This document shows, in pieces, positions 30,650 through 55,976 of a DNA stretch of 64,000 nucleotides (positions within the stretch are counted from its first letter, which is position 1; every line of letters begins with the position of its first letter). The stretch is taken from positions 62,001 to 126,000 of the forward strand of contig NZ_AUJQ01000007.1 of the NCBI RefSeq assembly GCF_000424305.1, read 5' to 3'. The notes under the pieces were generated by a model, which was not told the origin of the DNA, did no database searches, and worked only from the letters and a program-made list of their open reading frames with translations. This DNA comes from Pseudobutyrivibrio ruminis AD2017. GTDB lineage: Bacteria; Bacillota; Clostridia; Lachnospirales; Lachnospiraceae. A program made the translations under genes and the position numbers.

Positions 30650-31939
30650 ATGAAGGTTTTTTTATGGGGGGCTGGAGCATTTGGAAAAAGATTTTTAAAG
30701 CATATTCCAAATGATTTAGTTATAGGATTCATAGATAATGACGAAAGTAAGCATGGAACATTGATAGAGGGAAAGAAAGTTATTTCGTTTCAGGAATATT
30801 TAACAAATCATACGAATGAGTACATTGTAATAACTCACTTAATGAGTGAAGAAGCTGTTTATCTTTTGCAACAAAACAATATTACACGTTATTTCTTTTG
30901 CAATGATTGTCCGGCTGAATGGATTGAAGAATCTTTGCGTGAAGAATACGAGGAATATTTAAAAAAAACATTAGCATCAAATACCAGCTATTCAATTTTA
31001 GGACTTAATTTTTTTAGTATAGTAACAGCAGAAAGATTGCATAAAGAAAACAATGCGCAGATAAAAATTTATTATGAATCAGAAAACAAAAGGTTAGTTG
31101 AGGACTTATCAGATGAATTTGCTTACATGAAATTTGTCCCTGCTGAAAATATGAATAATGATATTGAACTTATTTACAACGCGACAAAGACGGAAATTGA
31201 AAAAAATAATATTGTAAATATCAATAATTGTTATAAAAATATCCCTGAGTATCGAAATGAAAAATTAAAAGAATTAAAGGATAAACATAAAGGCAAGCGA
31301 ATGTTTATTATAGGCCTTGGGCCAAGTTTAAATACTGAAGATTTAGAAGTGCTTAGAATGCATAATGAAATTTCTATAAGCATGAATGCTATATATCGAA
31401 TATTTGAAAATACTGAGTGGAGACCTGATTATTATGTGATTAGTGATACCAATTTTATACTAGAGAAATTTGATTATTATACAAAAGTTGATGTAGACAA
31501 TTTTATAATTGGTGATACATGTGGAAATTATATTGCTAATAAGTTAGAGAACGAACTAGGAGACAGGTACTATAAATTGCACGAATACAGAGACTGGAGT
31601 CGTGATAAACTACCAGATTATTCAGAAAATCTAGTTAATGGAGCTGTAGCTTGTGGTTCTGTAACATATACATGCATTCAGCTTGCGACATATTTGGGAG
31701 CTAAAGAAATATTTTTATTGGGAATGGATAATTCTGTGAAAAATAATAAAGGTGACAAGTATGCTCATTTTTTTAAAGAGGATAAATTGGAATCTAAATT
31801 CTTTGGAAGCTATGTATATAATGCATATGAAAGAGCAAAAATATATGCATTAGAGAAAGGAATAAAAATATACAATGCATCTCGAGGAGGAGAACTTGAG
31901 AGTTTTGAAAGAATAAAATTTGAAGATTTATTTGATTAG
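30650..31939 (+). CDS. DUF115 protein with N-terminal Rossmann module (Maf-like)
   Basis: A 429-aa protein. Residues 1-100 are a small Rossmann-like module (FLWGAGAFGKRFLKHI, VIGFIDNDESKHG). Residues ~205-400 are a DUF115 / MptE-like domain: FIIGLGPSLNTEDLEVL, SMNAIYR, PDYYVISD and IFLLGMDNS. DUF115 proteins include the motility accessory factors that transfer nonulosonic acids to flagellin. The nonulosonate genes directly downstream make a similar role attractive, but that is inference. ATG 30650 is chosen over a GTG 18 nt upstream because GGAG lies 8 nt before it. Confidence 0.82.
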   Translation: MKVFLWGAGAFGKRFLKHIPNDLVIGFIDNDESKHGTLIEGKKVISFQEYLTNHTNEYIVITHLMSEEAVYLLQQNNITRYFFCNDCPAEWIEESLREEYEEYLKKTLASNTSYSILGLNFFSIVTAERLHKENNAQIKIYYESENKRLVEDLSDEFAYMKFVPAENMNNDIELIYNATKTEIEKNNIVNINNCYKNIPEYRNEKLKELKDKHKGKRMFIIGLGPSLNTEDLEVLRMHNEISISMNAIYRIFENTEWRPDYYVISDTNFILEKFDYYTKVDVDNFIIGDTCGNYIANKLENELGDRYYKLHEYRDWSRDKLPDYSENLVNGAVACGSVTYTCIQLATYLGAKEIFLLGMDNSVKNNKGDKYAHFFKEDKLESKFFGSYVYNAYERAKIYALEKGIKIYNASRGGELESFERIKFEDLFD

Positions 31940-31974
31940 TTAAAAATTATTTGTATTGTGGAGACTTATTTTAG

Positions 31975-33558
31975 ATGAAAGTAATAGCTATTATTCCGGC
32001 TCGAGCTGGTTCAAAAGGTATTCCGAATAAAAACATTCGAATACTTAACGGAAAACCATTAATAGCATATTGTATCGAGAATGCAAAAAAAAGTAAGTTT
32101 ATAAATGACGTAATCGTTAGTACAGATTCTGAAGAAGTAAAATTGATTTCAAATTACTACGAGGTTAATTGTAAGGAACGAAATGAAGAACTCTGTGCAG
32201 ATGATGTCACGTTGGATGCTGTTATTTATGATGCTTGTAAAGATATAGATTGCGATTATGTTATTACAATGCAACCGACTTCACCAACGTTAAAATGGAA
32301 AACATTAGATAATGCTATTGAATATGCAATAAAGAATGATTTGGACACTCTCATATCTGTAGTAAATAAACCTCATCTAGCTTGGATGGAAAAAGATGGG
32401 AAGATTATTCCTGATTATGTAGAGAGATTAAATAGACAATATTTACCAAAAAGATATGAAGAGACAGGAGCTTTTGTAATATCAAAAAAGAGAGTTGTTA
32501 GTGAAAGTTCACGAATAGGGGAAAAAGTAAGTGTATTTGAAGTCTCTGAAAGCGAAGCGATTGATATAGATACTTTTCATGATATGTTAGTCGCTGAAAA
32601 TATTCTTCGTGAACAGAGAATAGCTATAGCTGTTGATGGGAATAATGAGATAGGTTTGGGACATATAGGCAGAATGCTCGAATTGGCGGATATGTTCTAT
32701 ACAAAACCAATATTCTTTTTTGATAGAAACAAAACGAAAATAGAATCATTTGGCGATACTACATATTCGCTTGTTGGGTATGATTCTATGGATGAACTAT
32801 TAGAAAAATTAGAAGAATACAGTTTTACAATTTTGATAAATGATAAATTGGATACTGAAAAAGATTATGTAATCAGATTAAAAAATCTTGGATTAAAAGT
32901 TGTTAATTTTGAGGATGTAGGTAGTGGAGCTGATTATGCTGATACAGTAATAAATTCTCTATATGATGATAAAACTAGTAATAGATATATAGGTCCAGAT
33001 TATTATTTAATACCGAAATTGTTTCTATTATACAAACCAATAACCATTAATAGAAATATAAAGAATGTGTTTATTTGTTTTGGTGGTGCGGACCCTCAAA
33101 ATTATACAGATGTAATTTTAGAAGAAATAAAAAAGGAAGAATATAAAAAATACGATTTTACTGTTGTATTGGGCAGGGCAAAAGAAAATTATGAATCGTT
33201 ATTAAAATTAGAGACGGATAATGTTTCGATAAAATATGATGTAAAAAATATGCCTGAATTAATGTCTAATGCAGATATGGCAATTACCTCTCAGGGCAGG
33301 ACATGTTTTGAGCTTGCTTTTCTTGGAATACCAACTATGTCATTTGCACAAAACATAAGAGAGGAAATGCATTCATTTGTTTCCGAAGAAAATGGGTTTA
33401 TCAGAAACGGTATTTCGAATACAAATGAAATAATAGAAGCGCTTCGGAAGTTTATTCAATTAGATTACGAGAGCAGAATTCAAATGCACAAAAAAATGCT
33501 TAAGACAAATTTATCTCATGGAAGAGAAAGAATAAAGGCTTTAGTTGATGCATTGTGA
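31975..33558 (+). CDS. CMP-nonulosonate cytidylyltransferase fused to SpsG/PseG-like domain
   Basis: A 527-aa fusion. Residues 1-215 are an acylneuraminate cytidylyltransferase (IIPARAGSKGIPNKNI; MQPTSPT), which makes CMP-activated nonulosonic acid. Residues ~217-525 are a PseG/SpsG-like GT-B domain (GNNEIGLGHIGRMLELA; CFGGADPQNYT; SQGRTCFELAFLGIP), the fold of the UDP-sugar hydrolase of pseudaminic or legionaminic acid synthesis. The fusion joins a late activation step to an earlier hydrolysis step. Its 3' end overlaps the longer reading of neuB. Confidence 0.9.
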   Translation: MKVIAIIPARAGSKGIPNKNIRILNGKPLIAYCIENAKKSKFINDVIVSTDSEEVKLISNYYEVNCKERNEELCADDVTLDAVIYDACKDIDCDYVITMQPTSPTLKWKTLDNAIEYAIKNDLDTLISVVNKPHLAWMEKDGKIIPDYVERLNRQYLPKRYEETGAFVISKKRVVSESSRIGEKVSVFEVSESEAIDIDTFHDMLVAENILREQRIAIAVDGNNEIGLGHIGRMLELADMFYTKPIFFFDRNKTKIESFGDTTYSLVGYDSMDELLEKLEEYSFTILINDKLDTEKDYVIRLKNLGLKVVNFEDVGSGADYADTVINSLYDDKTSNRYIGPDYYLIPKLFLLYKPITINRNIKNVFICFGGADPQNYTDVILEEIKKEEYKKYDFTVVLGRAKENYESLLKLETDNVSIKYDVKNMPELMSNADMAITSQGRTCFELAFLGIPTMSFAQNIREEMHSFVSEENGFIRNGISNTNEIIEALRKFIQLDYESRIQMHKKMLKTNLSHGRERIKALVDAL

Positions 33559-33568
33559 GGGGAGAATA

Positions 33569-34642
33569 ATGATTGATATCATAAATAAGAGAATTAATGA
33601 CAACAAATTTATTTTGATTGCTGAGATAGGGGTTAACTATTATGATATCGCAGCCAAAGAAAATATAACTCCAATGGAAGCAGCAAAATTGATGATTAAA
33701 GAAGCAGCAGAAGCAGGAGTACATGCAGTTAAATTTCAAACATACAAAGCCGAAACATTGGCATCAAAAGATTCTCCACATTATTGGGATATCAATGAAG
33801 AACCAACAGATTCACAATATAAGCTTTTTAAAAAATTTGATTCCTTTGGTTATGATGAATATAAAGAATTAGCTGATTATTGCGAAACGTACAATGTTGA
33901 ATTCTTATCTACACCTTTTGACGTAGCATCAGCAGATTATTTAAACGAGCTGATGAATGTATATAAGATATCATCTTCGGATTTAAATAACATTAAGTTT
34001 GTAGAATATATTGCTAAAAAAAATAAGCCTATACTACTTTCGGTTGGTGCCTCTAATGAAGATGAAATCTCTAGAAGTGTAGAGCTTATAAAAAAATACA
34101 ATGATAAAAAGATAACACTTTTGCATTGTGTTTTAGAATATCCAACACCATATGAGCATGCTAATCTTAATAAAATACAAACTATAAAATCTACATTCGA
34201 AGACTGTAATATCGGATATTCAGACCATACAAAACCAGAATGTAATTACGAAGTCTTGAAAACGGCATATATATTAGGCGCAAATATTATAGAAAAACAT
34301 TTCACCCTAGACAAAACATTGAAAGGAAATGATCATTACCATGCTATGGACCCAAATGATGTAAGAAAAATTATAAAAGAGATATCTTACATTAGGACAT
34401 TGCTGGGAAATGGGACATTAGAATGCTTGGAAAGTGAGAAAAAAGCAAGACTAAATGCGAGACGGTCACTAGTGGCAGCAAAAGAAATTCAAAAGGGCGA
34501 TATTATAACAGAGGACATGCTGACATTTAAGAGACCTGGTAATGGAATATCAGCAGATAGGTTTGAAGATATTGTAGGAAAGAAGGCTAATACTACTATT
34601 AAGATTGATACAGTGTTGAAGGATGAAATGGTGGATGAGTGA
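33569..34642 (+). CDS. neuB: N-acetylneuraminate synthase-family enzyme
   Basis: A 357-aa NeuB-type synthase that condenses PEP with a six-carbon amino sugar to give a nine-carbon nonulosonic acid (sialic, legionaminic or pseudaminic type; not resolved). The barrel domain has AEIGVNY, AVKFQTYKAE, STPFD, YKISSSDL and IIEKHFTLDK; the C-terminal ~60 residues are a SAF domain (RRSLVAAKEIQKGDIIT). ATG 33569 has GAGGGGAG 6 nt upstream and is preferred over an ATG inside the preceding gene. The epimerase, dehydratase and aminotransferase steps expected for the pathway are not in this locus. Confidence 0.92.
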   Translation: MIDIINKRINDNKFILIAEIGVNYYDIAAKENITPMEAAKLMIKEAAEAGVHAVKFQTYKAETLASKDSPHYWDINEEPTDSQYKLFKKFDSFGYDEYKELADYCETYNVEFLSTPFDVASADYLNELMNVYKISSSDLNNIKFVEYIAKKNKPILLSVGASNEDEISRSVELIKKYNDKKITLLHCVLEYPTPYEHANLNKIQTIKSTFEDCNIGYSDHTKPECNYEVLKTAYILGANIIEKHFTLDKTLKGNDHYHAMDPNDVRKIIKEISYIRTLLGNGTLECLESEKKARLNARRSLVAAKEIQKGDIITEDMLTFKRPGNGISADRFEDIVGKKANTTIKIDTVLKDEMVDE

Positions 34643-35895: not shown

Positions 35896-37007
35896 TAGTT
35901 GTTTCTGAAAAAGAAGATTTTATTAAAAAAGCAAATGAATTTCCTGACGGAGTAATATGTATTGGCGCTGGGAAAAATGCGCATACATTGGAGAAAGTTT
36001 TTGGATTAGAATTTTTAGAAAAAATAGTCGTTTTTGTTGATAGGGACATCAGGATACAAGAAGAAGGAATAATAATTGGTGGTAAGAAAAAAAAGGTCAT
36101 ATCATATCGGGGGGCAAATGAATATGTTAAAGGTAGGAATGTAATTTTACTAATCACGGCAGTTGATTATATCGGGATTAATGAAGAATTAAAAAAATTT
36201 ACTAATTTAGCTTTAAAAGAAACACATTGTCTTATATTTATTAATGGTTATGAACAAGAGAAAGAAGATTTACTTCAAAAGATTCCGGATAATTTAAGTA
36301 TTTATTCTACACGACAAATACCAAAGATAATACATTACTGTTGGTTTGGTGGTTCACCTATTCCAGAGAAGAATTTAATTTGGATGCAGTCATGGAGGAA
36401 GTATTGTCCTGATTACGAGATTATACGATGGGATGAATCTAATTATGATATTAGAAAAGCAAAATATGTTTCAGAAGCGTATGATTCAAAGAAATGGGCA
36501 TTTGTTTCAGATTATGTACGTTTGGATGTAGTCTACAATAATGGAGGGTTATATTTCGATGTTGATGTTGAAATAGTAAAGAATTTTGATGATATGCTTT
36601 TTCAAGATGCATTTGTTGCATTTGAGACACCTTATAGAGTTGCTACAGGTTTGGGATTTGGAGGGAAAAAAGGAAATAAAGTTATAGGAGAAATGTTAGA
36701 CTATTATAATAACATTTCTTTTATTAATGATTCAGGAGTTATGGATTTAACGCCTTGTCCTATTCATCAAACCAGAGTACTTGAAAAAAGAGGGTTGATA
36801 AAAAACGGGGCATATCAGATACTCGACGGTATAACAGTGTTTCCGGAAAAAATGCTTACTGGCAAAAGTGCTAGTACTAAAAGAATAATGTTAACGGACT
36901 ATACAAAAGCAATTCATCATTATGATGCTTCATGGCAGACTGAAGTGTATAAAAATAGTAGTAAATTACTAGAGTTAGATTTTGAGAGAAAAAATTGTAA
37001 TTATTAA
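35892..37007 (+). CDS. GT32-type glycosyltransferase with N-terminal Rossmann module
   Basis: A 371-aa protein. Residues ~1-125 form a degenerate Rossmann-like module (GVICIGAGKNAHTLEKVF, IVVFVDRD). From ~140 it is a GT32 / Gly_transf_sug-type transferase: IPKIIHYCWFGGSPIP, WAFVSDYVRLDVVYNNGGLYFDVDVEIVKNFD with the DVD metal-binding motif. These enzymes add a sugar from a nucleotide donor to a glycan acceptor. The start codon overlaps the upstream stop (ATGA). Confidence 0.88.
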   Translation: MIVVSEKEDFIKKANEFPDGVICIGAGKNAHTLEKVFGLEFLEKIVVFVDRDIRIQEEGIIIGGKKKKVISYRGANEYVKGRNVILLITAVDYIGINEELKKFTNLALKETHCLIFINGYEQEKEDLLQKIPDNLSIYSTRQIPKIIHYCWFGGSPIPEKNLIWMQSWRKYCPDYEIIRWDESNYDIRKAKYVSEAYDSKKWAFVSDYVRLDVVYNNGGLYFDVDVEIVKNFDDMLFQDAFVAFETPYRVATGLGFGGKKGNKVIGEMLDYYNNISFINDSGVMDLTPCPIHQTRVLEKRGLIKNGAYQILDGITVFPEKMLTGKSASTKRIMLTDYTKAIHHYDASWQTEVYKNSSKLLELDFERKNCNY

Positions 37008-38179: not shown

Positions 38180-39556
38180 ATGAAATTAGTTATATTCGGT
38201 ATTGGAAATTTTTATAAAAAAAAGATAAAAGAATTATATGATATTTGTCCATCTGCAGAAATAGTTGCATTTATAGATAATAAGGCATATGGGATGAAAA
38301 TGGATGAAATAGATATTTTAAATCCATTATGCATTAAAGAACTTACTTTCGATTATATTCTATTAATGAGCATAAGCGAAAATGCGATGGAAAAACAACT
38401 TGTTGAAATGGGGATATGTCTAAATAAGATTTTAACTTGGCAAAAATTTTTAAAGCTTAATGGTTATGGGAAAGCACAAATTGTAGGCAAAAAAGACCTA
38501 AAGAAGACAAAACAAGTTGGAATTATTACATGCCCAATGGGCTATAATGGCGGAAGTATAGCAGCTATGAGTTTAGCACTTGCATTAAAGAAAATCGGTT
38601 ATGGAGTAAGCATAATCACAGAAGAAATAGATAATAAGCTTGTAGAAGAAATAAGTTTAAGTATTGAGGTAATAATTTATCCCAACATTTCGATTCTAGG
38701 AAGCGAGGAAATAGAATTTTTAAAAGATTACAATTACATTTGGATTAATACTGCTCAAATGGCAAATTATGCATATAAAATTGGAGCAATCAAGCCGACT
38801 ATTTGGTGGATTCACGAAGGGGAAAAGGATTTTATTGAAAAGGGATATAGACAAATTGATTGGAGAGTAAATAAGGATAAATTAAAAGTAAAGGTATTTG
38901 CGGTAAGCAATATAGCAAAGGAAGAATATAATAAAGTATATAATAAGCAAAGTGTATCGATATTGCCTGTTGGCATTCCAAACACAATGAAAGAGGGGAA
39001 TTTCTCAAAGAATAAAAAGATTGTGTTTGCAGTTATTGGCTCTATAGTAAAAATTAAAGCACAAGATGTTTTCCTTAATGCAGCGGACTTGATAAATAAT
39101 AATGGTTACGATGTCGAATATTGGTTAATTGGGAAAAAATTTACAGATAATGAGTATAATTGTGTTGTAGAAAAGTTAATTAATAATGTGCGAGGAGTTC
39201 GATTATTAGGGGAATTATCAAGAAGTGAATTGAATTTAATGTATAAAGATATAGATGTTTTAGTATGCCCTTCTTTTGTGGAGTCATTAAGTTTAACAAC
39301 TATCGAGGCTATGATGAATAATATACCAGTTATTGTTTCAGATGCGACTGGTATAAGTGAGTACATAAAAAGTGGTAAAGAAGGATTTGTTTTTAAAAAT
39401 GGTGATACGAAGGATTTGGCAGAAAAAATGCAATGGTTAATAGATAATCCTTCGGAAAGAGGTGAAATGGGGACTAGGGCAAGAAAATTATATGAGAACC
39501 AATTCTCATTAGATGTTTTTGCTAATAATGTTGCCCATATTATGGAAGGAATGTAA
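38180..39556 (+). CDS. GT4 glycosyltransferase with N-terminal Rossmann module
   Basis: A 458-aa protein. Residues 1-95 are the Rossmann-like module (LVIFGIGNFYKKKIKEL, IVAFIDNKAYG). From ~110 it is a GT4-type transferase: MGYNGGSIAAMSLALAL, WWIHEGE, FAVIGSIVKIKAQDVFLNA, CPSFVESLSLTTIEAMMNNIPVIVSD. Soluble, 22 bp after the preceding gene. Confidence 0.9.
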   Translation: MKLVIFGIGNFYKKKIKELYDICPSAEIVAFIDNKAYGMKMDEIDILNPLCIKELTFDYILLMSISENAMEKQLVEMGICLNKILTWQKFLKLNGYGKAQIVGKKDLKKTKQVGIITCPMGYNGGSIAAMSLALALKKIGYGVSIITEEIDNKLVEEISLSIEVIIYPNISILGSEEIEFLKDYNYIWINTAQMANYAYKIGAIKPTIWWIHEGEKDFIEKGYRQIDWRVNKDKLKVKVFAVSNIAKEEYNKVYNKQSVSILPVGIPNTMKEGNFSKNKKIVFAVIGSIVKIKAQDVFLNAADLINNNGYDVEYWLIGKKFTDNEYNCVVEKLINNVRGVRLLGELSRSELNLMYKDIDVLVCPSFVESLSLTTIEAMMNNIPVIVSDATGISEYIKSGKEGFVFKNGDTKDLAEKMQWLIDNPSERGEMGTRARKLYENQFSLDVFANNVAHIMEGM

Positions 39557-41985: not shown

Positions 41986-42945
41986 ATGTATATTAGTAAT
42001 GAAATAGATTGGATTAACTTCTTAAAGCTAAAAAATGTATATATTTGGGGATTTTGTGAAAAAGGTAAACAACTAGCTCAGAAATTTGATTATGAAAAAA
42101 TAAAAGTTAAAGGATTTATTGATAATAATAAGGATAAGTATGGAGAGCACGAGGGATGGAATGTTTTCTCTTTTGAAAGTTATTTGAAAACTATAGATAA
42201 AGAAAATAGCATGATAGTAATTTGCAGTAATAAAGAAAGAGAAATAAAAATGCAATGTCTCCAGGTTGGGATAACTAATTTTATATCGGTTAATCAAGTT
42301 GATTTTGGTGGAGGTGTAGAGCATTATGATGAGCGTTATTTTGAATGGCAAAAACCGATGGGAGTATTTGGTGCAAAAGTTAGCTATAGAAGATTCAAAC
42401 CTTACGTAAAGGATACTGATACGTTGGTTGAATTTGGTTGTGCAGGTGGATATCTGTTACAAGAATTTGAAAACAATAATAAAGTAGGTATAGAAGTTAA
42501 TGATTTTGCAAGAGCATATTGCAGTAAGCAAGGGATAAAAAGCGTTAAGTATACAAACGAAATAAGTGATAATTATGCTGATATCATTATTTCAACACAT
42601 GTACTTGAACATGTAGAACGACCTTTAGATGAACTGCGACAATTATATAGAGTGTTAAAAACAGGTGGCAAAATTGTGTTTTATGTGCCAAATGAATCAT
42701 GCGATGTCGATTATAAAAGAAGTGATATAGATAATCATTTGTATACGTGGAATTGTTTGACATTAGGAAATCTTTTTAAAGCAGCCGGTTTTTTTGTTTA
42801 TTCTGTGCAGAATATAAAGGAGGTATGGCCTAATGACTGGGAGGCTGTTGAGAGAGACTTAGGAAGTGATGTATTTGATGAACTATCAGTTATTAAGGGA
42901 ACAGCATCAAATATAAATAATTGTTTGATAGTTGCCTACAAATAG
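41986..42945 (+). CDS. SAM-dependent methyltransferase with N-terminal Rossmann module
   Basis: A 319-aa protein. Residues ~15-105 carry the locus-wide module (VYIWGFCEKGKQLAQKF, KGFIDNNKDKYGEHEG). Residues ~130-319 are a class I methyltransferase: LVEFGCAGGYLLQEF (SAM site), STHVLEHVERPLDELRQLYRVLKTGG, FYVPNES. Probably O- or N-methylates a sugar or the glycan end. GGGGG precedes the start by about 7 nt. Confidence 0.9.
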   Translation: MYISNEIDWINFLKLKNVYIWGFCEKGKQLAQKFDYEKIKVKGFIDNNKDKYGEHEGWNVFSFESYLKTIDKENSMIVICSNKEREIKMQCLQVGITNFISVNQVDFGGGVEHYDERYFEWQKPMGVFGAKVSYRRFKPYVKDTDTLVEFGCAGGYLLQEFENNNKVGIEVNDFARAYCSKQGIKSVKYTNEISDNYADIIISTHVLEHVERPLDELRQLYRVLKTGGKIVFYVPNESCDVDYKRSDIDNHLYTWNCLTLGNLFKAAGFFVYSVQNIKEVWPNDWEAVERDLGSDVFDELSVIKGTASNINNCLIVAYK

Positions 42946-45296: not shown

Positions 45297-47624
45297 ATGA
45301 CAGACTTCAAGCTTCACACCCCGGTTGTATTTATTATTTTCAACAGACCAGATTGTGTTAAAGAAAGTTTTGAAAGTATAAGAGCAGCCAAACCTGAAAA
45401 ATTATATATAGTAGCAGATGGACCTAGATTTGACCATCCCGATGATAAAACATTATGCAAAGAGTGTAGAGATATTGTTAGTAATATTGATTGGGAGTGT
45501 CAAGTAAAAAGGATTTATTCTGATGTAAATATGGGTTGTGGAAAACGCCCAGCGACTGGGATAACAGAAGTATTTTGCCATGAGGACTCAGCAATTATAA
45601 TTGAAGACGATTGTGTTCCAACTAATGATTTCTACATTTTTTGCCAGGAAATGTTAGAAAGATATAAGGATGATGAGCGCATTTTTTCTGTTTCAGGGAT
45701 GAGTTTTGGGCTTAAGGATAATAGTGCGGATTATTATTTTACTTATTTAAATAACACTTGGGGATGGGCAACTTGGAAGCGAGCCTGGGAAGATTATGAT
45801 TATGAATTGCAAGAGTATCCTAAGGTAGTTGAAACAGATTATTTATATAAACTATATAACGATAGAATGATAGCTAACTTTTGGTATAGATGGTTTGATG
45901 AATGTTATTCGGGGAAAATTACATCTTCATGGGACCATCAGTTTCTATTTAGCTCTTTTTTGAAAAAGCGGTTACATATATATCCAAGTTATAATCTGGT
46001 CAGGTATACAGGTTTTAATAGTGCAGCAACTCATTGCAATACTGTTGACGAAGATAGTAGATTAGCAATTGAAACGAATAAGACAGATAGAATGTGTTTT
46101 CCAATCAAGCATCCACAAAATATAGCAAGAAACAAAGATTTAGAAATGATTCAGTTGAAAGATTTGTTCTTTATAAAAGAAGAACCAAATCTTTTCAATA
46201 TATTTTTAGGTGATTATATAAATCGTATAAGAGAATCAAAAAGAGTAATTATTTATGGAGCTGGAAATTGGGGTAAGCAATTTGGCCTAGAATTATTAGA
46301 GGCTGGAATTTCTTATTTTGAGTATGTAGTATCAAATAAGGAACAAATCACATCGGTTCTGGGTAGGCCATTGTATGACTTGGAAGGTTATACTAAGAGG
46401 ACTGGCGATGTATTAATTGTTGCAGTAGCTGGAAAGAATCGTGACGATATAAAAAATGAACTATATAAAAGGGATATAAAAGAGTATTTGCTACTGAAAA
46501 GTGATGCTGAATATTATAAAGAAAAGTATGAATCAAAACCCTTAGATAAAAAGCGTGTATTACTAATAACATCTGTTGATTATGCAGGTCATGGTAAAAA
46601 TATAGTTAAGAACATAATCAATCAGAGAAATGATATTGAAATTGGTTGGTATATAAAATCGGATACAGATATAAAGTTACTTGGTGTAGAAACAGTATCT
46701 GATAAAGATATTGATAGATATTATAAATACTTTTATGGAGCACAATATATTGTATCAGATACGGGGTGCACGAATTCAAGGCCTGGACAAATCTTAATCC
46801 AACTAAAACATTGGTCTAGTATTACCCTAAAAATGTTTGGCTATGATGAATTAAGATATCGTGGCGAAACAGATATTGATAAGTATGGAGTACATGGTTG
46901 GGATAATATTGATTATCTGCTAGTTGGTAGTGAATTTGACGAAAAAACGTGTCGAAGTGGGTTCAAGTATGATGGTCCTGCTATTTATGTTGGCTCACCT
47001 AGATCAGACATATTATTTGATGATGAATATGATTATTATGAAGTAATAAACAAGTATTCATTGGATAAGAATAAAAAATATATTTTATATGCTCCAACTT
47101 TTAGAATAAAAGAGCCAGGTTCGATTGATGGAATATTTGAAAATGAATTGGATTTTTCAGTACTTAAAGCTGCTCTAGATAAAAAGTTCGGTGGAGATTG
47201 GAATATATTGCTACGCTTGCATCCATTTGTAGCTAAACAAAGTAAACTGATTCCTAAACCAGATTATGTTATTGATTTAAGTGATTATTATGATGGGGAA
47301 GAGCTTGTAGGTATATCAGATGCATTGATTACAGATTATTCAAGTATCATGTTTGAACCGGCCTATATTAATAGACCAGTGTTTCTATTTGCACCTGATA
47401 AGGAAAAGTATTTATCTGAAGAACGTGGCTTTTATATAAATTATGAAGAGTTGCCATTTGCTTCTGCGGATACAAATGAAAAGCTTTGCAAAAATATCAT
47501 GGAATTTAATAATGAACAATATTGTATCGGTTTGCGGAAATTCTTTGATAAATATGGGGTTCATGAGGATGGAAAAGCTGCAAAAAGAGCAGCAGATTTT
47601 ATTTTGAATTTAATAGAAAAATAG
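45297..47624 (+). CDS. Three-part protein: GT2-like domain, Rossmann module, TagF-like transferase
   Basis: A 775-aa protein. Residues 1-270 are a GT2-like transferase (PVVFIIFNRPDCVKESF, IIIEDDCVPTNDFY, NNTWGWATWKRAW). Residues ~310-400 are the recurring module (RVIIYGAGNWGKQFGLELL). Residues ~415-775 are a CDP-polyol phosphotransferase of the TagF type (LYAPTFRIKEPG, LRLHPFV, ALITDYSSIMFEPAYINRPVFLF). It could add a sugar and then a polyol phosphate. AAGGAG lies 8 nt before the ATG. Confidence 0.9.
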   Translation: MTDFKLHTPVVFIIFNRPDCVKESFESIRAAKPEKLYIVADGPRFDHPDDKTLCKECRDIVSNIDWECQVKRIYSDVNMGCGKRPATGITEVFCHEDSAIIIEDDCVPTNDFYIFCQEMLERYKDDERIFSVSGMSFGLKDNSADYYFTYLNNTWGWATWKRAWEDYDYELQEYPKVVETDYLYKLYNDRMIANFWYRWFDECYSGKITSSWDHQFLFSSFLKKRLHIYPSYNLVRYTGFNSAATHCNTVDEDSRLAIETNKTDRMCFPIKHPQNIARNKDLEMIQLKDLFFIKEEPNLFNIFLGDYINRIRESKRVIIYGAGNWGKQFGLELLEAGISYFEYVVSNKEQITSVLGRPLYDLEGYTKRTGDVLIVAVAGKNRDDIKNELYKRDIKEYLLLKSDAEYYKEKYESKPLDKKRVLLITSVDYAGHGKNIVKNIINQRNDIEIGWYIKSDTDIKLLGVETVSDKDIDRYYKYFYGAQYIVSDTGCTNSRPGQILIQLKHWSSITLKMFGYDELRYRGETDIDKYGVHGWDNIDYLLVGSEFDEKTCRSGFKYDGPAIYVGSPRSDILFDDEYDYYEVINKYSLDKNKKYILYAPTFRIKEPGSIDGIFENELDFSVLKAALDKKFGGDWNILLRLHPFVAKQSKLIPKPDYVIDLSDYYDGEELVGISDALITDYSSIMFEPAYINRPVFLFAPDKEKYLSEERGFYINYEELPFASADTNEKLCKNIMEFNNEQYCIGLRKFFDKYGVHEDGKAAKRAADFILNLIEK

Positions 47625-47636
47625 ACGGGGTTGTAT

Positions 47637-48656
47637 ATGAAAAATGAGTTTGATGTTATTAGAAAAATATATTCTAGATTATCTGATGACAAATCAAAAC
47701 GGATATTTTGCAATAGACTAAATTACAATTTGAGTAATTCAAAAGAAGATTTATTTAAGTTAGTTAGTGAAGCAGAGGGGTTAGAGAAATTTCCGAAGCA
47801 AATATGCAAAAGTAATAATATTTTATTTGGTGCAGGGGCTCGAGCGCAGTCATTATTGGCATTTTATAGTGATGAGATTATAGCGCTAGTTGACAGTGAT
47901 ACATCTAAACAAGGGAGCTATATCTGCCAAAAACCTATACTATCTCCTGATGTATTAAAGGAGAAATATCTAGAGTCGAATATTATTGTTGCTAATACTT
48001 TTAACTCAGAAGAAATAGTGAATCAACTTTATGAACTTGGAGTTCAAAAGGAAAGAATCATAAATATCGGTGAGAGTTTGAATGAACTAAATCGTACTCA
48101 GTATTTCGGGTTAAGAGAATTGTCATGCGAAAAGGAAGAGGAAGTATTTATAGATGCTGGTTGTTATGATGGTGTAACAGTTCAGTACTTTTTGAAATGG
48201 TGCTCTAGTAAAGATTACAAGATATATTCTTTTGAACCAGATGACGAAAACTATAAAAAAATATGTGATAAGCAATGTGAAAAATGGGAAATAATAAATA
48301 AGGGATTATGGGGGAGTACACGACAACTGAGTTTTAATTCAAATAGCAATAGTAGTCGAGTGAGTACAAATGGAACTGGCGATACAGCAGTTGAAGTTAT
48401 ATCACTAGATGATTTTATAAGAGACAAAAAAGTAACATTTATAAAAATGGATATTGAAGGGGCGGAATATGAGGCTTTGTTGGGAGCAAAAAGAATAATA
48501 ATTGAACAAAAGCCTAAATTGGCAATTTGTGTATATCATAAGCCAGAAGACATTATAGATATTCCTCAGATAATATTAAGCTTTAATCAAGAATACAAAT
48601 TGTATCTAAGACATTATTGGGCTACTCCTTATGAAACAGTATTATATGCAATATAA
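47637..48656 (+). CDS. FkbM-family methyltransferase with N-terminal Rossmann module
   Basis: A 339-aa protein. Residues ~60-150 form the module (NILFGAGARAQSLLAFY, ALVDSDTSKQGSYICQKPIL). Residues ~165-339 are an FkbM-type SAM methyltransferase: VFIDAGCYDGVTVQYFL, YSFEPDDENYKKI, and FIKMDIEGAEYEALLGA. These usually O-methylate sugars. ATG 47637 has GGGG 6 nt upstream and is preferred over TTG 47631. Confidence 0.9.
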   Translation: MKNEFDVIRKIYSRLSDDKSKRIFCNRLNYNLSNSKEDLFKLVSEAEGLEKFPKQICKSNNILFGAGARAQSLLAFYSDEIIALVDSDTSKQGSYICQKPILSPDVLKEKYLESNIIVANTFNSEEIVNQLYELGVQKERIINIGESLNELNRTQYFGLRELSCEKEEEVFIDAGCYDGVTVQYFLKWCSSKDYKIYSFEPDDENYKKICDKQCEKWEIINKGLWGSTRQLSFNSNSNSSRVSTNGTGDTAVEVISLDDFIRDKKVTFIKMDIEGAEYEALLGAKRIIIEQKPKLAICVYHKPEDIIDIPQIILSFNQEYKLYLRHYWATPYETVLYAI

Positions 48657-48700: not shown

Positions 48701-49888
48701 ATGACAAAATTAGTAAGCATAGTTGTACCAGTTTTCAATACCGAAAAATACATAAATAGATGTATTGATAGCCTATTAAATCAATCATATTCAAGCACGG
48801 AAATAGTGCTTGTGGATGATGAGTCTAGTGATAGGTCTGGGGTTATATGCGATGAATATGCGTCTGATAATAGAAATGTTGTTGTCTATCATAAAACAAA
48901 TCAAGGGGCTTTTTCAGCTAGAAGGTATGGAGTAGAAAAAGCAAATGGTGAATATGTAGTTTTTGTAGATTCTGATGATTATGTTGAAAAGGATTATGTA
49001 CTGAATCTAGTAAATAATATTGGTGAATGCGATGTGTGTACCAGTGGCTGTATTTGGGTAAACATAGATGAATCTAAACATATTGAAACAGATAATTTCA
49101 AGGAAAAGATCTATAAGGATGAGTCTCTCAAGGATGTTTATAAACATATGATATTCAATTATGGTAGACCAGAGGATTATTATAGAGGGATTCTTACTTA
49201 TATGGTATGTAAGCTGTATAAGAAAGAGTTGGCATTGAGCATTTTCAGTAAACTAGATGAAAAAATGCAGTTTTGTGAAGATGGGCAATTCGTATTTACG
49301 TATTTATTAAATAGCAAATCTATCAGCATAACACATGGGGCTTTCTATAATTATTGCCATAGAGCTGATTCGATTACACATCAGAAAATGAATCATTATT
49401 TGGATAGTCTTGAGCGGCTATATAATAGCATTTTAAAACAAGCTCATGATAATGAATATGAAAGTGAAATCAAAATACAAATAGAGGAATACATTAATTA
49501 TAGATTAAAGCTTGCACCTCATTACATGCAGTTTTCCTGTGTAAAAAATAGGCCAACTTATGAATTTCCTTACTGGGGAGATTTTGAAGGAAAAAGAGTT
49601 GTTTTATATGGAGCAGGAAATATCGGAAAAGATTACTATAGGGAAATAATAAGTGTTGATGAATTCAAATTAGTGGCATGGGTGGATAAAAACTATGAGC
49701 AAATAAGATATCCCGCTGTTCCAGAAATAATGGAACCAGAAATTATTAAATCGTTGAATTATGATGCAGTGATTGTAGCAGTTGGGGAAAGCCAGTATGA
49801 ATCATCGATTGAAGATTTGATAAATATGGGTATTCCAAGGGATAAGATTTATTGGAGAAAACCAAATAGAATAAGATACTATGATTAA
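48701..49888 (+). CDS. GT2 glycosyltransferase with C-terminal Rossmann module
   Basis: A 395-aa protein. Residues 1-220 are a GT2 domain (SIVVPVFNTEKYINRCIDS, VLVDDESSD, VFVDSDDYVEKDY with the DxD-like motif). The C-terminal ~100 residues are the module (RVVLYGAGNIGKDYYREI, VAWVDKNYEQI, YDAVIVAVG). No membrane segment is present, unlike many polysaccharide GT2 enzymes. AGGTGA precedes the start. Confidence 0.92.
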   Translation: MTKLVSIVVPVFNTEKYINRCIDSLLNQSYSSTEIVLVDDESSDRSGVICDEYASDNRNVVVYHKTNQGAFSARRYGVEKANGEYVVFVDSDDYVEKDYVLNLVNNIGECDVCTSGCIWVNIDESKHIETDNFKEKIYKDESLKDVYKHMIFNYGRPEDYYRGILTYMVCKLYKKELALSIFSKLDEKMQFCEDGQFVFTYLLNSKSISITHGAFYNYCHRADSITHQKMNHYLDSLERLYNSILKQAHDNEYESEIKIQIEEYINYRLKLAPHYMQFSCVKNRPTYEFPYWGDFEGKRVVLYGAGNIGKDYYREIISVDEFKLVAWVDKNYEQIRYPAVPEIMEPEIIKSLNYDAVIVAVGESQYESSIEDLINMGIPRDKIYWRKPNRIRYYD

Positions 49889-49913: not shown

Positions 49914-51254
49914 ATGAAACTATCAATTTTAGTGCCAATATACAATGTATCAAAATATTTACCGGAGTGCTTGGATTCTCTGCTGGCGCAGACGGTGTCT
50001 GATATGGAGATAATCTGTATTAATGATGGTTCTACTGATAATTGTAAATCTATTATTGAATCATATGTTAGCAGAGATTCTAGATTTAAGCTGATAGATA
50101 AAGAAAACACAGGGTATGGAAACTCATTAAATATGGGACTTGCAGCAGCGCAGGGTGAATATATTGGTATTGTTGAAAGTGATGATTACATTGATGCTGG
50201 CATGATGCATGACCTTTTATCTGTAATAGAAAAGACACAGGCAGATGTTGTGAAGTCTGACTATAAATATTCTAGTTTCGATGATTCTTTGGACAACAAG
50301 AAAAGCAATAATTTAAGGAATCTTCCTGTTGATATGGTGTTTAATCCGTTAAAAGAACAGGGGATATTTTTGGTTGGGCAGTCTCTTTGGAGTGCGCTGT
50401 ATAGAAGAGATTTCTTGAGTGATAACAATATAACCTTCCATGAAACCCCAGGTGCATCTTTTCAAGATGTATCTTTTGCATTTAAAGTAATGACAAATGC
50501 TAAGAAAATATATTTAATCGATAGAGCATATTATCATTATCGTGTTTCAAATCCTAATGCTTCTATGAAGATGGATAATAAACTAGATAAATTGTGCTCT
50601 GAGATTAATTACATAGAGGAGTTTATAGGTCAAAGAAAAGATAGGAAAGCGTTAGAACCAATTCTGTCAAGATTGGCATTTAGGATTTTATATGAAAATT
50701 ATCAATGGGCAGTACCGGCCTACCAATTTGTCATGCTAAACGAACTTGCCAGTCGTCTTCGTATATACGAATCGCGAGGAGATTTTGCTGCAGATATATG
50801 GGATGATGAATCGGTAGCCACTGCAAAAGAAATAATAGTTGATAAAGATGCATTTTACAAAAAAACAGGGAAAAAGATTTTTGATAGCAGACTGTGGCAA
50901 GGAACTATGAATGCAAGCGTGTATAAAGATGCGATACTATCAAAAGCTATCCCATATGAGAATATAGTTTTATATGGAGCTGGCGTTGTAGGAAGCAAGA
51001 TTAAAGATGAATTGCTGAATAGGGGAGTTCAAAAATCGCAACTCACATTTGCAGTAACATCAAAATCCGATAATCAAGATGAAAAAGATGGTATACCGGT
51101 TAAACAAATTGATGAGTTTAAAGGTAGTGGTGAAAATACTATTTTTATTATCACTGTAAAAGAGGAAAAACAGTATGAAATGCTTCAAAATATGCAGAGA
51201 CTGGGAATAGAAAATGTTTTATTTTTAAGTGACGAGGTGAGGTATAGCCTATGA
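49914..51254 (+). CDS. GT2 glycosyltransferase with C-terminal Rossmann module
   Basis: A 446-aa protein. Residues 1-230 are GT2 (SILVPIYNVSKYLPECLDSLL, CINDGSTDN, VESDDYID). The C-terminal ~100 residues are the module (NIVLYGAGVVGSKIKDELL, ENTIFIITVKEEKQYEMLQNM). AGGGGAG precedes the ATG. It is the last gene of the AT-rich core. The sequence just upstream (TATGATTAATATGGTA, 49881-49896) recurs before the gene at 52513. Confidence 0.92.
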   Translation: MKLSILVPIYNVSKYLPECLDSLLAQTVSDMEIICINDGSTDNCKSIIESYVSRDSRFKLIDKENTGYGNSLNMGLAAAQGEYIGIVESDDYIDAGMMHDLLSVIEKTQADVVKSDYKYSSFDDSLDNKKSNNLRNLPVDMVFNPLKEQGIFLVGQSLWSALYRRDFLSDNNITFHETPGASFQDVSFAFKVMTNAKKIYLIDRAYYHYRVSNPNASMKMDNKLDKLCSEINYIEEFIGQRKDRKALEPILSRLAFRILYENYQWAVPAYQFVMLNELASRLRIYESRGDFAADIWDDESVATAKEIIVDKDAFYKKTGKKIFDSRLWQGTMNASVYKDAILSKAIPYENIVLYGAGVVGSKIKDELLNRGVQKSQLTFAVTSKSDNQDEKDGIPVKQIDEFKGSGENTIFIITVKEEKQYEMLQNMQRLGIENVLFLSDEVRYSL

Positions 51255-51278
51255 GAATCATTGACATCCTCGAAAGGC

Positions 51279-52512: not shown

Positions 52513-54867
52513 ATGAACACAACAGATTCTGTGCGCGATTTGGCCCGTGGCCTAATCAGCTGGTATAACTTTAAAAAGAATGGAAAAGCACTTCTAATCA
52601 CAGGGAACTTCCCTGCCTTTGAGGTGCTTTTTTCTGTATTTGAGGATGTGGGAATAAAGGCGGATGTTGTGGATATCCCACGTCTATCACAGGTTAGTGG
52701 TGGATATGATTATGTGGTGATTGCAGCAGGCTTGGAAAGTACTGTAGAGCCAAGCAAGCTGATGGCTGCTGCGGCGGCCAATCTGAAGGATGATGGTACG
52801 CTTTTCCTAGCCACTTTTAACCGCTTCAACCTGGGGCAGTTCCTTGGGGATAAGGATGTAACAACAGGTCATGTGTTAGATGGCATTGATAACTATGCGC
52901 AGGTAAGTGAAAAGAGAATGAAGGAAATTGGCGGCCATAGCTATTCTAAGGTGGAGATTGACGAGATGGTTGCAGCAGTGGGGATGACAGCACCTCAGGT
53001 ATTTAGCGTATTCCCAAGTCTTTTCAGGCCTCAGATTATGGTGCGATACGGCGAAAAGCCGAACGAGCGATTCGACGCAAGAATCCAGGGAATGTACAAT
53101 TCTCCTGAGACCCTATATCTTAATAAAAACAATCTGTATGATGATTTTATGAAAAATGATTTGCTACATCAGATGGCAGATGGATATTTGTATATTTGCA
53201 GCAAATCACAGGCAGGGGGCAAAACAGAACAAACAAATAATTTAGACGATATCCATGAAATCACTGTACAGACAGGCCGCATTCCACAATCTGCCATGGC
53301 AACTATCGTATATACGAATAAAGTAATAAAGAAAAATATGTATCCAGCGGGAGCTACTGCTCTTCAAAAAATCGATGATAATGCCAAATATCTTAGAGCT
53401 CATGGAGTACATGTTGTGGAAGGCCAGCTTACAGAATCAGGTTACGAAACCTCATTTATAAAGGGACAGATTCTAACAGAATACCTACGTGACATTCTTA
53501 TAAATGCAGGTCGTGAAGCCTTCTTAGCCGAGCTGTCAAAGTTTAAAAATATATTTGAAAACTCATCACGCCACCTATCCTACGACGAGGTAGACTGGAC
53601 CAAGTTTGATCCATATTGGGAGAAGCGAAAGTTAGACGATCCAGAGCTATACAAATGGCGGGATTTAGCAAACGGCACAGCTGAGGACAAGGCAGCCATA
53701 GGCATCATCCTGGAGCGAGGCTACCTGGATTTGGCGCCAATCAACTGCTTCATGACAGATGATGGCCCGGTATTTTTCGACCAGGAATTCTATGTGCCAC
53801 AGATTCCAGCAAACGCCATATTCCTAAGGCTGATAGAGGTGGTATATGCATACTGGACAGAGGGCTATCGGCTACTTCCAATGGATGAGGTGCTGGATTA
53901 TTTTAATCTAAAAACCAACGCTGAAATATTCAGGCTGCAGGTTAGCAAAAATCTTATCGATTTCATAAATGACCAGGAGCTGGTTGCCTACAATAGAAAG
54001 GTCAGAGCGGATTACAATACTATCGTTAACAATCGTTTTAGGATGGACTATACACAGGACCAGTATGAAAAGTTATTCACTGATATTTTCAAGGATGTAG
54101 AGGGCAAGAAAATCTATCTTTTCGGCTCTGGTGATTATGCGAAAAAGTTTATAGAAAAATTTAGAAACGAATACAAAATCGCCGCCTGCATCGACAACAA
54201 TAGGAGCAAATGGGGCACTGATGTAGAGGGCATTCCAATCTGCTCGCCAGAGACTTTGGTAAATGAAACTGAAGGCTACAAGGTTTTCATTTGCATTAAG
54301 TTTTATGATGATGTGCTTGCCCAGCTTAAAGATATGGCCATTCCTAATATCGCCGTATTTGACCCAAGGCTGGATTATCCAAGGCCGCTTAAGCATGTGG
54401 CAGAGGCCACCGAGGGAAAGGCAGCGAAAAAATACCACATCGGCTATGTGGCAGGGGTGTTTGATATGTTCCACATTGGTCATCTAAATCTGCTGCGCCG
54501 TGCCAAGGAGCAGTGTGATTATCTGATTGTTGGAGTGGTTACGGATCAGCAGATTATGCATAACAAAAAGACCAGGCCCGTGATTCCTTTTGAACAGCGC
54601 TACGCCATAGTGCAAGGCTGCAGATATGTGGATGAGGCGGTGACGATTCCTGCCGACAACGCCAGCACGGAATATGCTTATCGCACCTACAGATTTGATG
54701 CCCAGTTTTCCGGCAGTGATTATGCGGATGACCCAAATTGGCTGGCAGTGAAGGAGTGGTTGCATCAGCAGGGCAGCGACCTGGTATTCTTCCCATACAC
54801 AGAAGAAATCAGCTCCACCATGCTAAAAGGCCAGCTTAGAGATTCATCACAGGAAGAGGAAAAATAA
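52513..54867 (+). CDS. Four-part glycan enzyme ending in a cytidylyltransferase
   Basis: A 784-aa protein. Residues ~1-215 are methyltransferase-like (ALLITGNFPAFEVLFSVF, YDYVVIAAGLES), possibly without activity. Residues ~255-530 resemble a kinase-fold phosphotransferase (LDLAPINCFMTDDGPVFFDQEF, about 404-423, recalling the catalytic loop and DFG-like site of aminoglycoside phosphotransferases). Residues ~533-625 are the recurring Rossmann module (IYLFGSGDYAKKFIEKF, ACIDNNRSKWG). Residues ~640-784 are a cytidylyltransferase (GVFDMFHIGHLNLL, EEISSTMLK). A kinase plus cytidylyltransferase would phosphorylate an alcohol and activate it as a CDP derivative. Base composition is richer in GC than the 27-51 kb core. 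Confidence 0.78.
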   Translation: MNTTDSVRDLARGLISWYNFKKNGKALLITGNFPAFEVLFSVFEDVGIKADVVDIPRLSQVSGGYDYVVIAAGLESTVEPSKLMAAAAANLKDDGTLFLATFNRFNLGQFLGDKDVTTGHVLDGIDNYAQVSEKRMKEIGGHSYSKVEIDEMVAAVGMTAPQVFSVFPSLFRPQIMVRYGEKPNERFDARIQGMYNSPETLYLNKNNLYDDFMKNDLLHQMADGYLYICSKSQAGGKTEQTNNLDDIHEITVQTGRIPQSAMATIVYTNKVIKKNMYPAGATALQKIDDNAKYLRAHGVHVVEGQLTESGYETSFIKGQILTEYLRDILINAGREAFLAELSKFKNIFENSSRHLSYDEVDWTKFDPYWEKRKLDDPELYKWRDLANGTAEDKAAIGIILERGYLDLAPINCFMTDDGPVFFDQEFYVPQIPANAIFLRLIEVVYAYWTEGYRLLPMDEVLDYFNLKTNAEIFRLQVSKNLIDFINDQELVAYNRKVRADYNTIVNNRFRMDYTQDQYEKLFTDIFKDVEGKKIYLFGSGDYAKKFIEKFRNEYKIAACIDNNRSKWGTDVEGIPICSPETLVNETEGYKVFICIKFYDDVLAQLKDMAIPNIAVFDPRLDYPRPLKHVAEATEGKAAKKYHIGYVAGVFDMFHIGHLNLLRRAKEQCDYLIVGVVTDQQIMHNKKTRPVIPFEQRYAIVQGCRYVDEAVTIPADNASTEYAYRTYRFDAQFSGSDYADDPNWLAVKEWLHQQGSDLVFFPYTEEISSTMLKGQLRDSSQEEEK

Positions 54868-55976
54868 TGAGAACGATTTCTACAGGCACATGTTTTACAG
54901 AAAAAATATCAAACTCATATAAGGAACGCAGGCAGGCTGGGTTTAACAACTTCATGCTGGATTTCGACGCTTTTAAGACCGAGGAAGTCCTTGAAGGTGA
55001 AGAGGATATACGTTATCTTTGCGAAGGATTTGTTAATCAATGCAAGGCCGATGGCATAACTGTGGAGGTGGCAAAGGCACCATCATTTGCATATGAGCTA
55101 AAGCTTTATCCAAGAGCAAGGCTTGAGGAATTGTTTTTCCAGTCATTTGATGTGGCTAAGGCATTGGGGTGCAAAGCTATTATAGTGAATCCTTACTTCG
55201 TGGATGTTAAAAATCCAATGACTGATGAAGAGGCAAAGCTATTTTATGACTCATTGATTCCGTATGCTCTTAAATCGGATGTTAAGATTTTAATTCCAAA
55301 CCAGCCAACTCTTTATAATGGCAACATTTATAGAGGCATTCTTTCAGATAAATACCAATTTGTGGAATTTATTGATTCACTAAATGAAAAGGCTGGCGGT
55401 GAGCATTTTGGAATGGTTCTTAATACAGAAGTCGTGAATGATTTGGGACAGCGATTATCTGAGTTAATTGACCAGTGGGCTGCCTTGATTGATATAGTGG
55501 ACATGAGCGAGCAAGATAATCTGAAGTATTTGATATTGTCACTTCGTAAATGCGAATTTGACGGCGGCGTGATGATTGACAGAGATAGAATATATTGGAA
55601 AGTACCAAGCCCGCTTAAGCCTGCCTATGTGAATTACACAAAGACATTAACGGATTATATAGATTGGCAAATCAACCTTGAGAGGACAATTCGTAAATAC
55701 GATAGTAGAGTGTTATTTGGTGCAGGAAATATGTGCCGAATTTATATGGAAAAATTCGGAGAGAATTATCCACCTGCATTTACCTGCGACAATAATAGTG
55801 GAATATGGGGAAGTGAAGCTTTTGGACTTCAGATTAAATCGCCAGAAGCTTTGAAGGAATTACCAGCTGACACTGCAATCTTCATCTGTAACACCTTTTA
55901 TGATGAAATCACTGCCCAGCTTAAAGCTATGAACATACCTAATCCAATAGAGAGATTTAACGACGAGATATTGTAA
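54867..55976 (+). CDS. TIM-barrel isomerase-like protein with C-terminal Rossmann module
   Basis: A 369-aa protein. Residues 1-265 look like a diverged xylose-isomerase-like / AP-endonuclease-2 barrel (FNNFMLDFDAF, KALGCKAIIVNPYF, KILIPNQP, FGMVLNTEVVN). The usual metal-binding His and Glu are not obvious, so activity is uncertain. The C-terminal ~95 residues are the module (RVLFGAGNMCRIYMEKFG, FTCDNNSGIWG). It overlaps the stop of the previous gene by one base and precedes a canonical isomerase-like gene. Confidence 0.78.
   Translation: MRTISTGTCFTEKISNSYKERRQAGFNNFMLDFDAFKTEEVLEGEEDIRYLCEGFVNQCKADGITVEVAKAPSFAYELKLYPRARLEELFFQSFDVAKALGCKAIIVNPYFVDVKNPMTDEEAKLFYDSLIPYALKSDVKILIPNQPTLYNGNIYRGILSDKYQFVEFIDSLNEKAGGEHFGMVLNTEVVNDLGQRLSELIDQWAALIDIVDMSEQDNLKYLILSLRKCEFDGGVMIDRDRIYWKVPSPLKPAYVNYTKTLTDYIDWQINLERTIRKYDSRVLFGAGNMCRIYMEKFGENYPPAFTCDNNSGIWGSEAFGLQIKSPEALKELPADTAIFICNTFYDEITAQLKAMNIPNPIERFNDEIL

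Follow-up and report, generated by a model that had tools for sequence, protein, structure and literature searches.

We analyzed a window of 64,000 nucleotides from Pseudobutyrivibrio ruminis AD2017 (G000:C6:62001-126000 in a genome of 2.9 Mb; numbering below refers to window positions) and found that a module of about 95 residues recurs as 13 segments in 12 proteins encoded between positions 30650 and 55973. These segments form a single family of common ancestry. We assign a probability of about 55% to the reading that the module is an accessory domain responsive to nucleotides or nucleotide sugars in a pathway that glycosylates proteins with soluble enzymes and dispenses with a lipid carrier, most likely the O-glycosylation of flagellin. 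The flagellin glycans of Clostridia are variable and many of their enzymes are without an assigned role; according to a report on C. difficile type A, such a glycan can be required for motility (PMC4441256). A module that sets the enzymes of flagellin glycans apart from those of lipid-linked polysaccharides would provide a handle to find and sort these genes. If it senses nucleotides or gathers enzymes, it would also help to explain how, with no lipid carrier involved, a dozen soluble enzymes can modify a single protein.

An initial annotation, made from the DNA letters, had described 13 recurring segments in 12 glycan proteins, and we recovered all of them in these proteins once the difference between the start of an open reading frame (ORF) and that of its module was allowed for. 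With leave-one-out hidden Markov models, 12 of the 13 modules scored 23.0 to 64.0 bits, and in each case none of 500 shuffles reached the score. The profile search that the annotation had envisaged held up for these 12 and retrieved relatives as well, but not for the copy in ORF 35892-37007: its 5.9 bits were reached by 11 of 500 shuffles, and taken alone it is not significant. Its orthologue L055:17789-18901, which aligns with the 35892 protein over nearly the whole length at 45% identity, possesses a clear module (46 bits) at the same place. The modules are listed with their leave-one-out scores and the shuffles that reached them:

30650..30967, + strand: N-terminal module of an MptE-like/DUF115 host (ORF 30632-31939; PF01973 2.6e-18); 40.6 bits, 0/500
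35946..36260, + strand: divergent N-terminal module of a GT32-type host (ORF 35892-37007); 5.9 bits, 11/500; orthologue 46 bits
37838..38155, + strand: C-terminal module of ORF 37025-38158 (2-Hacid_dh_C 7e-4, below cut-off); 32.9 bits, 0/500
38180..38470, + strand: N-terminal module of a GT4 host (ORF 38180-39556; Glycos_transf_1 1.1e-30); 35.8 bits, 0/500
42028..42318, + strand: N-terminal module of an S-adenosylmethionine (SAM) methyltransferase (ORF 41986-42945; Methyltransf_23 6.3e-16, CoA_binding 0.0057); 34.1 bits, 0/500
43886..44164, + strand: N-terminal copy in ORF 43886-45271, which has a weakly methyltransferase-like middle; 23.0 bits, 0/500
45005..45268, + strand: C-terminal copy in ORF 43886-45271 (PglD_N 1.1e-3); 47.8 bits, 0/500
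46236..46520, + strand: internal V-type module ahead of a TagF domain (ORF 45297-47624; Glyphos_transf 1.4e-63); 27.2 bits, 0/500
47808..48104, + strand: N-terminal module of an FkbM methyltransferase (ORF 47631-48656; TIGR01444 2.2e-21); 43.8 bits, 0/500
49589..49885, + strand: C-terminal module of a GT2 protein (ORF 48701-49888; PglD_N 22.4 bits, cut-off 23.4); 44.1 bits, 0/500
50955..51251, + strand: C-terminal V-type module of a GT2 protein (ORF 49914-51254); 27.7 bits, 0/500
54103..54381, + strand: internal module ahead of a cytidylyltransferase (ORF 52513-54867; model pLDDT 94.2, pTM 0.85); 64.0 bits, 0/500
55701..55973, + strand: C-terminal module of a weakly TIM-barrel-like protein (ORF 54867-55976); 41.3 bits, 0/500

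It is extremely improbable that the segments are chance or convergent Rossmann look-alikes. GxGxxG is a common motif, and the weak score of the 35892 copy would suit such an origin, but the leave-one-out scores largely refute it, as does a single iterated profile that recovered 12 of the 13 window modules. In the signature that emerged, an aromatic residue precedes G-x-G-x-x-(G/A); a helix and strand 2, with Asp at its end, come next, and L-x-x-x-G-(I/V) lies further along. The pattern drawn up initially was right in assuming a conserved signature, but its opening G-G-G has to be replaced by the aromatic-G-x-G-x-x-(G/A) element, and its FIDN stands for the end of strand 2 with its Asp. One glycine never varies in alignment A1; for the second glycine and the Asp, conservation is 90% or higher. 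Two window copies, those of ORFs 45297 (46236-46520) and 49914 (50955-51251), carry V-S or V-T in place of D-N at the strand-2 Asp. In a set of 246 copies, which contains near-duplicates and partial matches, GxG is present in 209, the Asp in 197, and both in 167; this retention favors a common kind of ligand. Copies of the Val type occur on unrelated hosts and perhaps represent another ligand class; the nearest neighbor is also of the Val type in 13 of 30 cases (3.7 expected), partly on account of near-duplicates. DNA-level repeats of at least 40 nucleotides exist among the window copies only for the 52513/54867 pair (63 nucleotides, 76%); the copies are therefore old and diverged, and recent duplication of modules is ruled out.

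For structure prediction with AlphaFold2, we used alignment A2. It contains 90 copies out of a set of 114 with pairwise identities below 45%; the 35892 copy and the N-terminal copy of ORF 43886 are not included. The model of 96 residues, which covers the core only (pLDDT 94.2, pTM 0.85), depicts the module as a minimal Rossmann domain of the nucleotide-binding type with GxGxxG and an acidic end of strand 2. The Rossmann-like nature suspected in the initial annotation was supported by this prediction and by the structural and profile relatives. All 19 Foldseek matches with E ≤ 0.001 are Rex proteins or the N-domain of UDP-D-quinovosamine 4-dehydrogenase (3nkl); lower ranks are taken by 2g6t, VioB, biliverdin reductase, PerB, and succinyl-CoA synthetase. 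The TMq was highest for 3nkl (0.78), followed by succinyl-CoA synthetase (0.70), VioB (0.68), and Rex (0.62-0.68). The module profile run against the PDB matched 3nkl (7.5e-12), Rex (1.6e-10), 2g6t (6.8e-8), VioB (1.7e-5), and WbaP (1e-4), and a Pfam scan of the 90 modules (E ≤ 0.01) gave PglD_N 30 times (best 8.4e-9), and C2185-like_N and CoA_binding 14 times each. The module belongs with the PglD_N, CoA-binding, Rex, and WbaP-DUF domains, a kinship absent from the initial annotation. Already known are the fold, these relatives, and a crystal structure, 2g6t, that joins a related N-domain to a DUF1919-like part.

In the 12 module-bearing window proteins, no module match reached the cut-off of a Pfam family, nor that of an NCBIfam family among those listed. 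PglD_N, the N-domain of the PglD/NeuD/VioB sugar N-acetyltransferases, was the most frequent Pfam match; however, all 12 window proteins stayed below its cut-off (PF17836, 23.4 bits), with 22.4 bits for ORF 48701 as the best value, and no Hexapep domain of hexapeptide acetyltransferases was found in the window hosts at E ≤ 1. Some relatives do pass the PglD_N cut-off (e.g., the free-standing copy of L072 with 36.2 bits), and L064:9247-10206 has a Hexapep match of 24.1 bits (cut-off 27). TIGR03570 (NeuD/PglB/VioB; cut-off 160.8 bits) gave at best 26 bits (ORF 43886) with 10 of the 12 proteins scanned; it was not among the best 25 families for ORFs 48701 and 49914. For CoA_binding (PF02629, cut-off 22.3 bits), whole proteins reached at most 17.8 bits, and the module 54103-54390 alone 21.6 bits. 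The NAD(H)-binding domain of Rex resembles the module, but true Rex proteins also possess a DNA-binding N-domain; this domain (PF06971) had no match in the 12 hosts at E ≤ 1, and the Rex of the own genome (L022, 5.8e-23) served as positive control. The WbaP DUF and the N-domain of FlaA1/CapD-type dehydratases resemble the module in structure and are likewise accessory domains of glycan enzymes. They differ in that CoA_binding_3 (PF13727) matched neither the 12 module proteins (E ≤ 1) nor the 90 modules (E ≤ 0.01), with the CapD-type protein L023 of the own genome (1.6e-10) as positive control, and in that the module hosts are soluble and 13 copies lie in one locus. 2g6t, a protein of Clostridium acetobutylicum titled uncharacterized, is matched in its N-terminal part by the module profile and in its later part by L064:2767-3711 (module plus DUF1919); we take its locus tag to be CAC2185. 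For C2185-like_N (PF22674), the window copies remain far below the cut-off of 27 bits (best 17.5).

As described in PMC10942596, the related domain of WbaP stabilizes the dimer and is itself stabilized by uridine mono-, di-, and triphosphate (UMP, UDP, UTP), and WbaP is inhibited by UMP. The module may work in a similar mode. It would be carried by most enzymes of the pathway, probably on a flexible tether. In each copy, the pocket formed by GxGxxG and the Asp would take up a nucleotide or nucleotide sugar, and this ligand would tune either the enzyme to which the copy is attached or the association of that enzyme. Numerous enzymes of the pathway could then read a common nucleotide pool, whether of the donor or of a nucleoside mono- or diphosphate (NMP/NDP) by-product. 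A full-length model of the GT2 protein 48701 (pTM 0.76) displays two folded domains and a poorly predicted stretch (residues 275-288, pLDDT < 50) that fits such a tether. We favor a response to nucleotides or nucleotide sugars as the shared function, with docking as the main rival. Far more speculatively, and in our estimation unlikely, the module might be one interchangeable, nucleotide-gated Rossmann plug of a cytosolic flagellin-glycosylation machine of Clostridia, in which any transferase, methyltransferase, or radical-SAM enzyme could be exchanged into the island once it has acquired the plug, and free or membrane-anchored modules would act as a hub or switch that couples assembly to nucleotide supply.

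Profile searches covered the phylum of the window. In the own genome, a profile built from the window copies found 13 strong matches (E ≤ 1.5e-15) in 12 proteins, all at C6:92650-117964; strong copies are confined to this one locus. Five weaker matches comprised Rex (1e-4), a CapD-type dehydratase (0.003), and three at 0.006-0.09; the dehydratase possesses CoA_binding_3 and is encoded about 3 kb from a PGT (lipid-carrier initiation) gene. At the 24 places (C2-C5) with GT2 domains like that of ORF 48701 and at the five PGT places of this genome, no module match was found beyond the weak ones. Among 18 genomes of the same genus, 16 had 4-14 matches and two had one (Rex-length frames included). 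An iterated search yielded 135 copies, 12 of them in the window and the rest in 23 loci, and it gave 108 in 21 loci that mostly belong to other genera and families. None of the host domains of the window was matched in 64 module proteins. Among the Pfam families listed for them (25 of 42) were radical SAM (8), GT9 (6), RgpF (4), and TylF (3), and further hosts were WbsX, DUF4422, DUF1919, and LicD (2 each), GT8, TupA, FucT, and others. A module frame of L106 (640 aa) considered as a dehydratase turned out to be a GT56-type protein. In the L073 locus of G009, two module matches contain stops, and this locus therefore looks partly decayed.

Copies without any host were found as well, with lengths of 85 aa (L120), 100 aa (L072), 119 aa (L119), 125 aa (L112), and 147 aa (L074). 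When the L120 copy was used as query, 18 of 146 genomes had matches, and the shortest other frame measured 122 aa (G493). In L066:15039-15545 (168 aa) and L109:11341-11826 (161 aa), from two families, we saw by eye a hydrophobic stretch at the N-terminus and a module behind it; they are possibly membrane-anchored free modules. These free-standing copies speak for a docking role, in which modules associate with one another, or with a free copy that is in some cases anchored in the membrane, and so hold together a soluble flagellin-glycosylation complex, the nucleotide site being structural or gating assembly. The poorly predicted linker between GT2 and module favors a role in trans, and the N-terminal, middle, and C-terminal placements (64, 11, and 59 of 134 copies) are in line with it. 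We nevertheless consider docking rather unlikely. Outside the P-loop edge, conservation among the 90 modules concerns mainly the hydrophobic core and turns, plus an Asp before strand 4 (59/90); the copies of a locus are not homogenized; and the WbaP dimer is, as described, formed largely by a β-hairpin (PMC10942596), a comparison to be read with the core-only extent of our 96-residue model. The initial annotation had left the choice between a common ligand and docking. A common kind of ligand is now favored by the kept GxG and Asp, and docking is less probable, given that conservation lies mainly in the core and turns and that same-locus neighbors are scarce. Its soluble glycan-assembly complex is likewise only a possibility; the add-on shared by unrelated enzymes is real, and their pathway looks soluble.

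Only five of 134 copies had their nearest neighbor in the same locus (permutation mean 7.3), and 11 did when homologous hosts were left out (7.4); concerted evolution or locus-specific pairing is thus unsupported. In contrast to these values, the nearest neighbor shared the position class for 98 of 134 copies (permutation mean 57, maximum 77) and resided on a homologous host for 62. The modules follow their hosts and not the locus, and it therefore seems that enzymes enter the islands with their modules already in place; this suggests that the pathway needs the module. The opposite explanation, a passenger that domain shuffling has distributed over glycan genes and that lacks a shared function, we regard as quite improbable. 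The very low identity of the copies (the set of 114 is mutually below 45%) would suit a passenger, as would the agreement in position class, which falls within the permutations when homologous hosts are left out (71 of 134; mean 57, maximum 79). However, the glycines and the Asp are kept, neighbors share position class and often a homologous host, the domain order of ORF 52513 is preserved across families, and copies exist without any host.

The tie to flagellin goes beyond what the initial annotation contained. We assembled by hand a linkage set of 34 module genomes, comprising 15 of the 21 others with at least four matches, eight of 13 from another search, and 11 of the 18 matched by the L120 copy; most contribute clusters, G023 contributes one free-standing copy, and the copies of G090 and G106 lie on separate short contigs. 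All 34 genomes possess flagellin. Counting main module sites only, a listed flagellin gene was found within 15 kb in 14, within 25 kb in 17, and within 45 kb in 21 of the 34 genomes, whereas a PGT gene was found at none of these distances in any of them. With the lone side module of G112 included, the values at 25 and 45 kb become 18 and 22. A chance model expects at most 3.5 and 5.5 genomes at these two distances, with maxima of 14 and 17 in 200,000 draws, and 10 of 12 families contain at least one genome linked at 25 kb. Module sites in other genomes are tied to flagellin and not to PGT. Outside the main sites, a lone match of G146 lies about 1 kb and one of G134 about 31 kb from a PGT gene; by length, the PGT-adjoining matches of G090 and G117 correspond to a dehydratase and an acetyltransferase. 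Within the family, flagellin was present in 18 of 18 module genomes compared to 7 of 20 without a module match (p = 1.6e-5, with genomes taken as independent), the latter being those listed of 36 without a match, some of them incomplete.

Individual gene orders illustrate this tie. In L120, a flagellin-family protein (L120:3661-5724), the 85-aa module (L120:5947-6204), FliW, CsrA, and flagellin follow each other in one row, with an MptE-like protein that carries a Maf N-domain (Maf-type) further along; the Maf N-domain was seen in L120 only and not in the window. We presume that L120:3661-5724 is FlgL. L111 contains CsrA, flagellin, a module cluster, NeuB, and a GT28-like protein; L111:18773-19750 was rejected as a NeuA candidate, its match being Glyco_tran_28_C, and we assume the GT28-like parts to be PseG. 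For Clostridium, flagellar glycosylation islands have been described in which variable clusters of glycan and NulO genes form part of the flagellar locus, in a report whose main text contains neither "Rossmann" nor "domain of unknown" (PMC13317340); unlike these islands, the window locus lies outside the flagellar region. In the open-licence literature, we found no description of one accessory domain common to flagellin-glycosylation enzymes.

Several observations weaken our interpretation, both for the ligand and for flagellin. Of the 246 copies, about 30 have Val at the Asp position; in 37, one of the first two glycines is missing or the copy is not aligned there. UMP may, according to its authors, act at the active site of WbaP too (PMC10942596). 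The 34 genomes are related to each other and were a manual choice, gene positions were entered manually, the list of flagellin genes was incomplete, and the linkage in G023 was known before the test. For 13 of them, the contig with the main site carries no listed flagellin gene, and a PGT gene shares this contig in only nine, so that part of the PGT result reflects short contigs. At the level of the phylum flagellin is common (244 of 299), and for this reason we prefer linkage over presence as evidence. In the own genome, the flagellin genes are on other contigs than the window, and in complete or near-complete genomes of the genus flagellin is far from the module locus. Most module loci of the genus have no flagellin gene nearby; in G002, about 13 kb separate a flagellin-family gene from a module site. 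It is therefore by analogy that we connect the window with flagellin.

These distances, the 13 genomes, and the TagF-like genes of the locus could also mean that the window locus builds another soluble or surface glycan, teichoic-like or capsular, and that the flagellin link holds for the relatives only; this strikes us as a doubtful alternative, about as weak as docking. No PGT gene is present on the contig of the window (the five places are on C2 and C3 only), the proteins tested between 17968 and 56948 have at most one transmembrane-like segment each, and none of the 34 main sites lies within 45 kb of a PGT gene. The pathway of the locus looks soluble. NeuA-type, NeuB, and DUF115 (PF01973) genes, features of flagellin-glycosylation islands, are present, and together with the relatives they point to flagellin as the probable target of the window glycan. 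The module-free genes in question and their upstream neighbors are:

28370-29608, + strand: TagF-like transferase, no module (PF04464 1e-64)
29622-30629, + strand: radical-SAM/SPASM protein, no module (PF04055 1.1e-20)
31975-33558, + strand: NeuA-type cytidylyltransferase fused to a GT28/DUF354-like part, no module (CTP_transf_3 2.9e-27; Glyco_tran_28_C 3.5e-4, below cut-off)
33545-34642, + strand: NeuB, no module (NeuB 1.2e-79)

The region 31975..34642 holds nonulosonic-acid-type genes; further module-free genes of the locus encode GT4, GT2-GT4, and deacetylase proteins. Pfam confirmed as module hosts MptE-like/DUF115, GT32-type (Gly_transf_sug), GT4, SAM methyltransferase, FkbM, TagF (Glyphos_transf), two GT2, and CTP_transf_like proteins. 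The host list of the initial annotation was accordingly correct for GT2, GT4, GT32, TagF, methyltransferases, DUF115, and cytidylyltransferase, but its isomerase (ORF 54867) matches AP_endonuc_2 at 0.018 only, and the kinase part of ORF 52513 had no match to a kinase family in Pfam. Methyltransferase models matched the middle of ORF 43886 below their cut-offs (best 1.1e-4), and the N-terminal halves of ORFs 37025 and 45297 had no family match.

The core at 52513-56948 encodes, in this order, the N-terminal part-module-cytidylyltransferase protein, a TIM-module protein, and a TIM protein, and may produce a cytidine diphosphate (CDP)-activated group for the TagF-like transferases. The domain order of ORF 52513 is kept in L055, L056, L059, L060, and L114 (36% identity to L114), and similar core orders exist in L114-L117 and L119; a scan with this ORF matched three Pseudobutyrivibrio loci (92%, 66%, and one partial). 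A module-free ATPase (ATPase_2) at 51413-52474 within the locus looks like an insertion. So do the downstream genes at 57383-61055, which encode a 618-aa protein that matched no Pfam family at 1e-5, a small protein that appears helix-turn-helix-like by eye, and a DUF6036 nucleotidyltransferase. On the other side, 17968-22877 encodes an 847-aa protein, likewise unmatched in Pfam at 1e-5, followed by a cytidylyltransferase-GFO_IDH fusion and by a GFO_IDH protein, and a DUF3990 protein (25742-26314, 6.4e-35) adjoins the locus.

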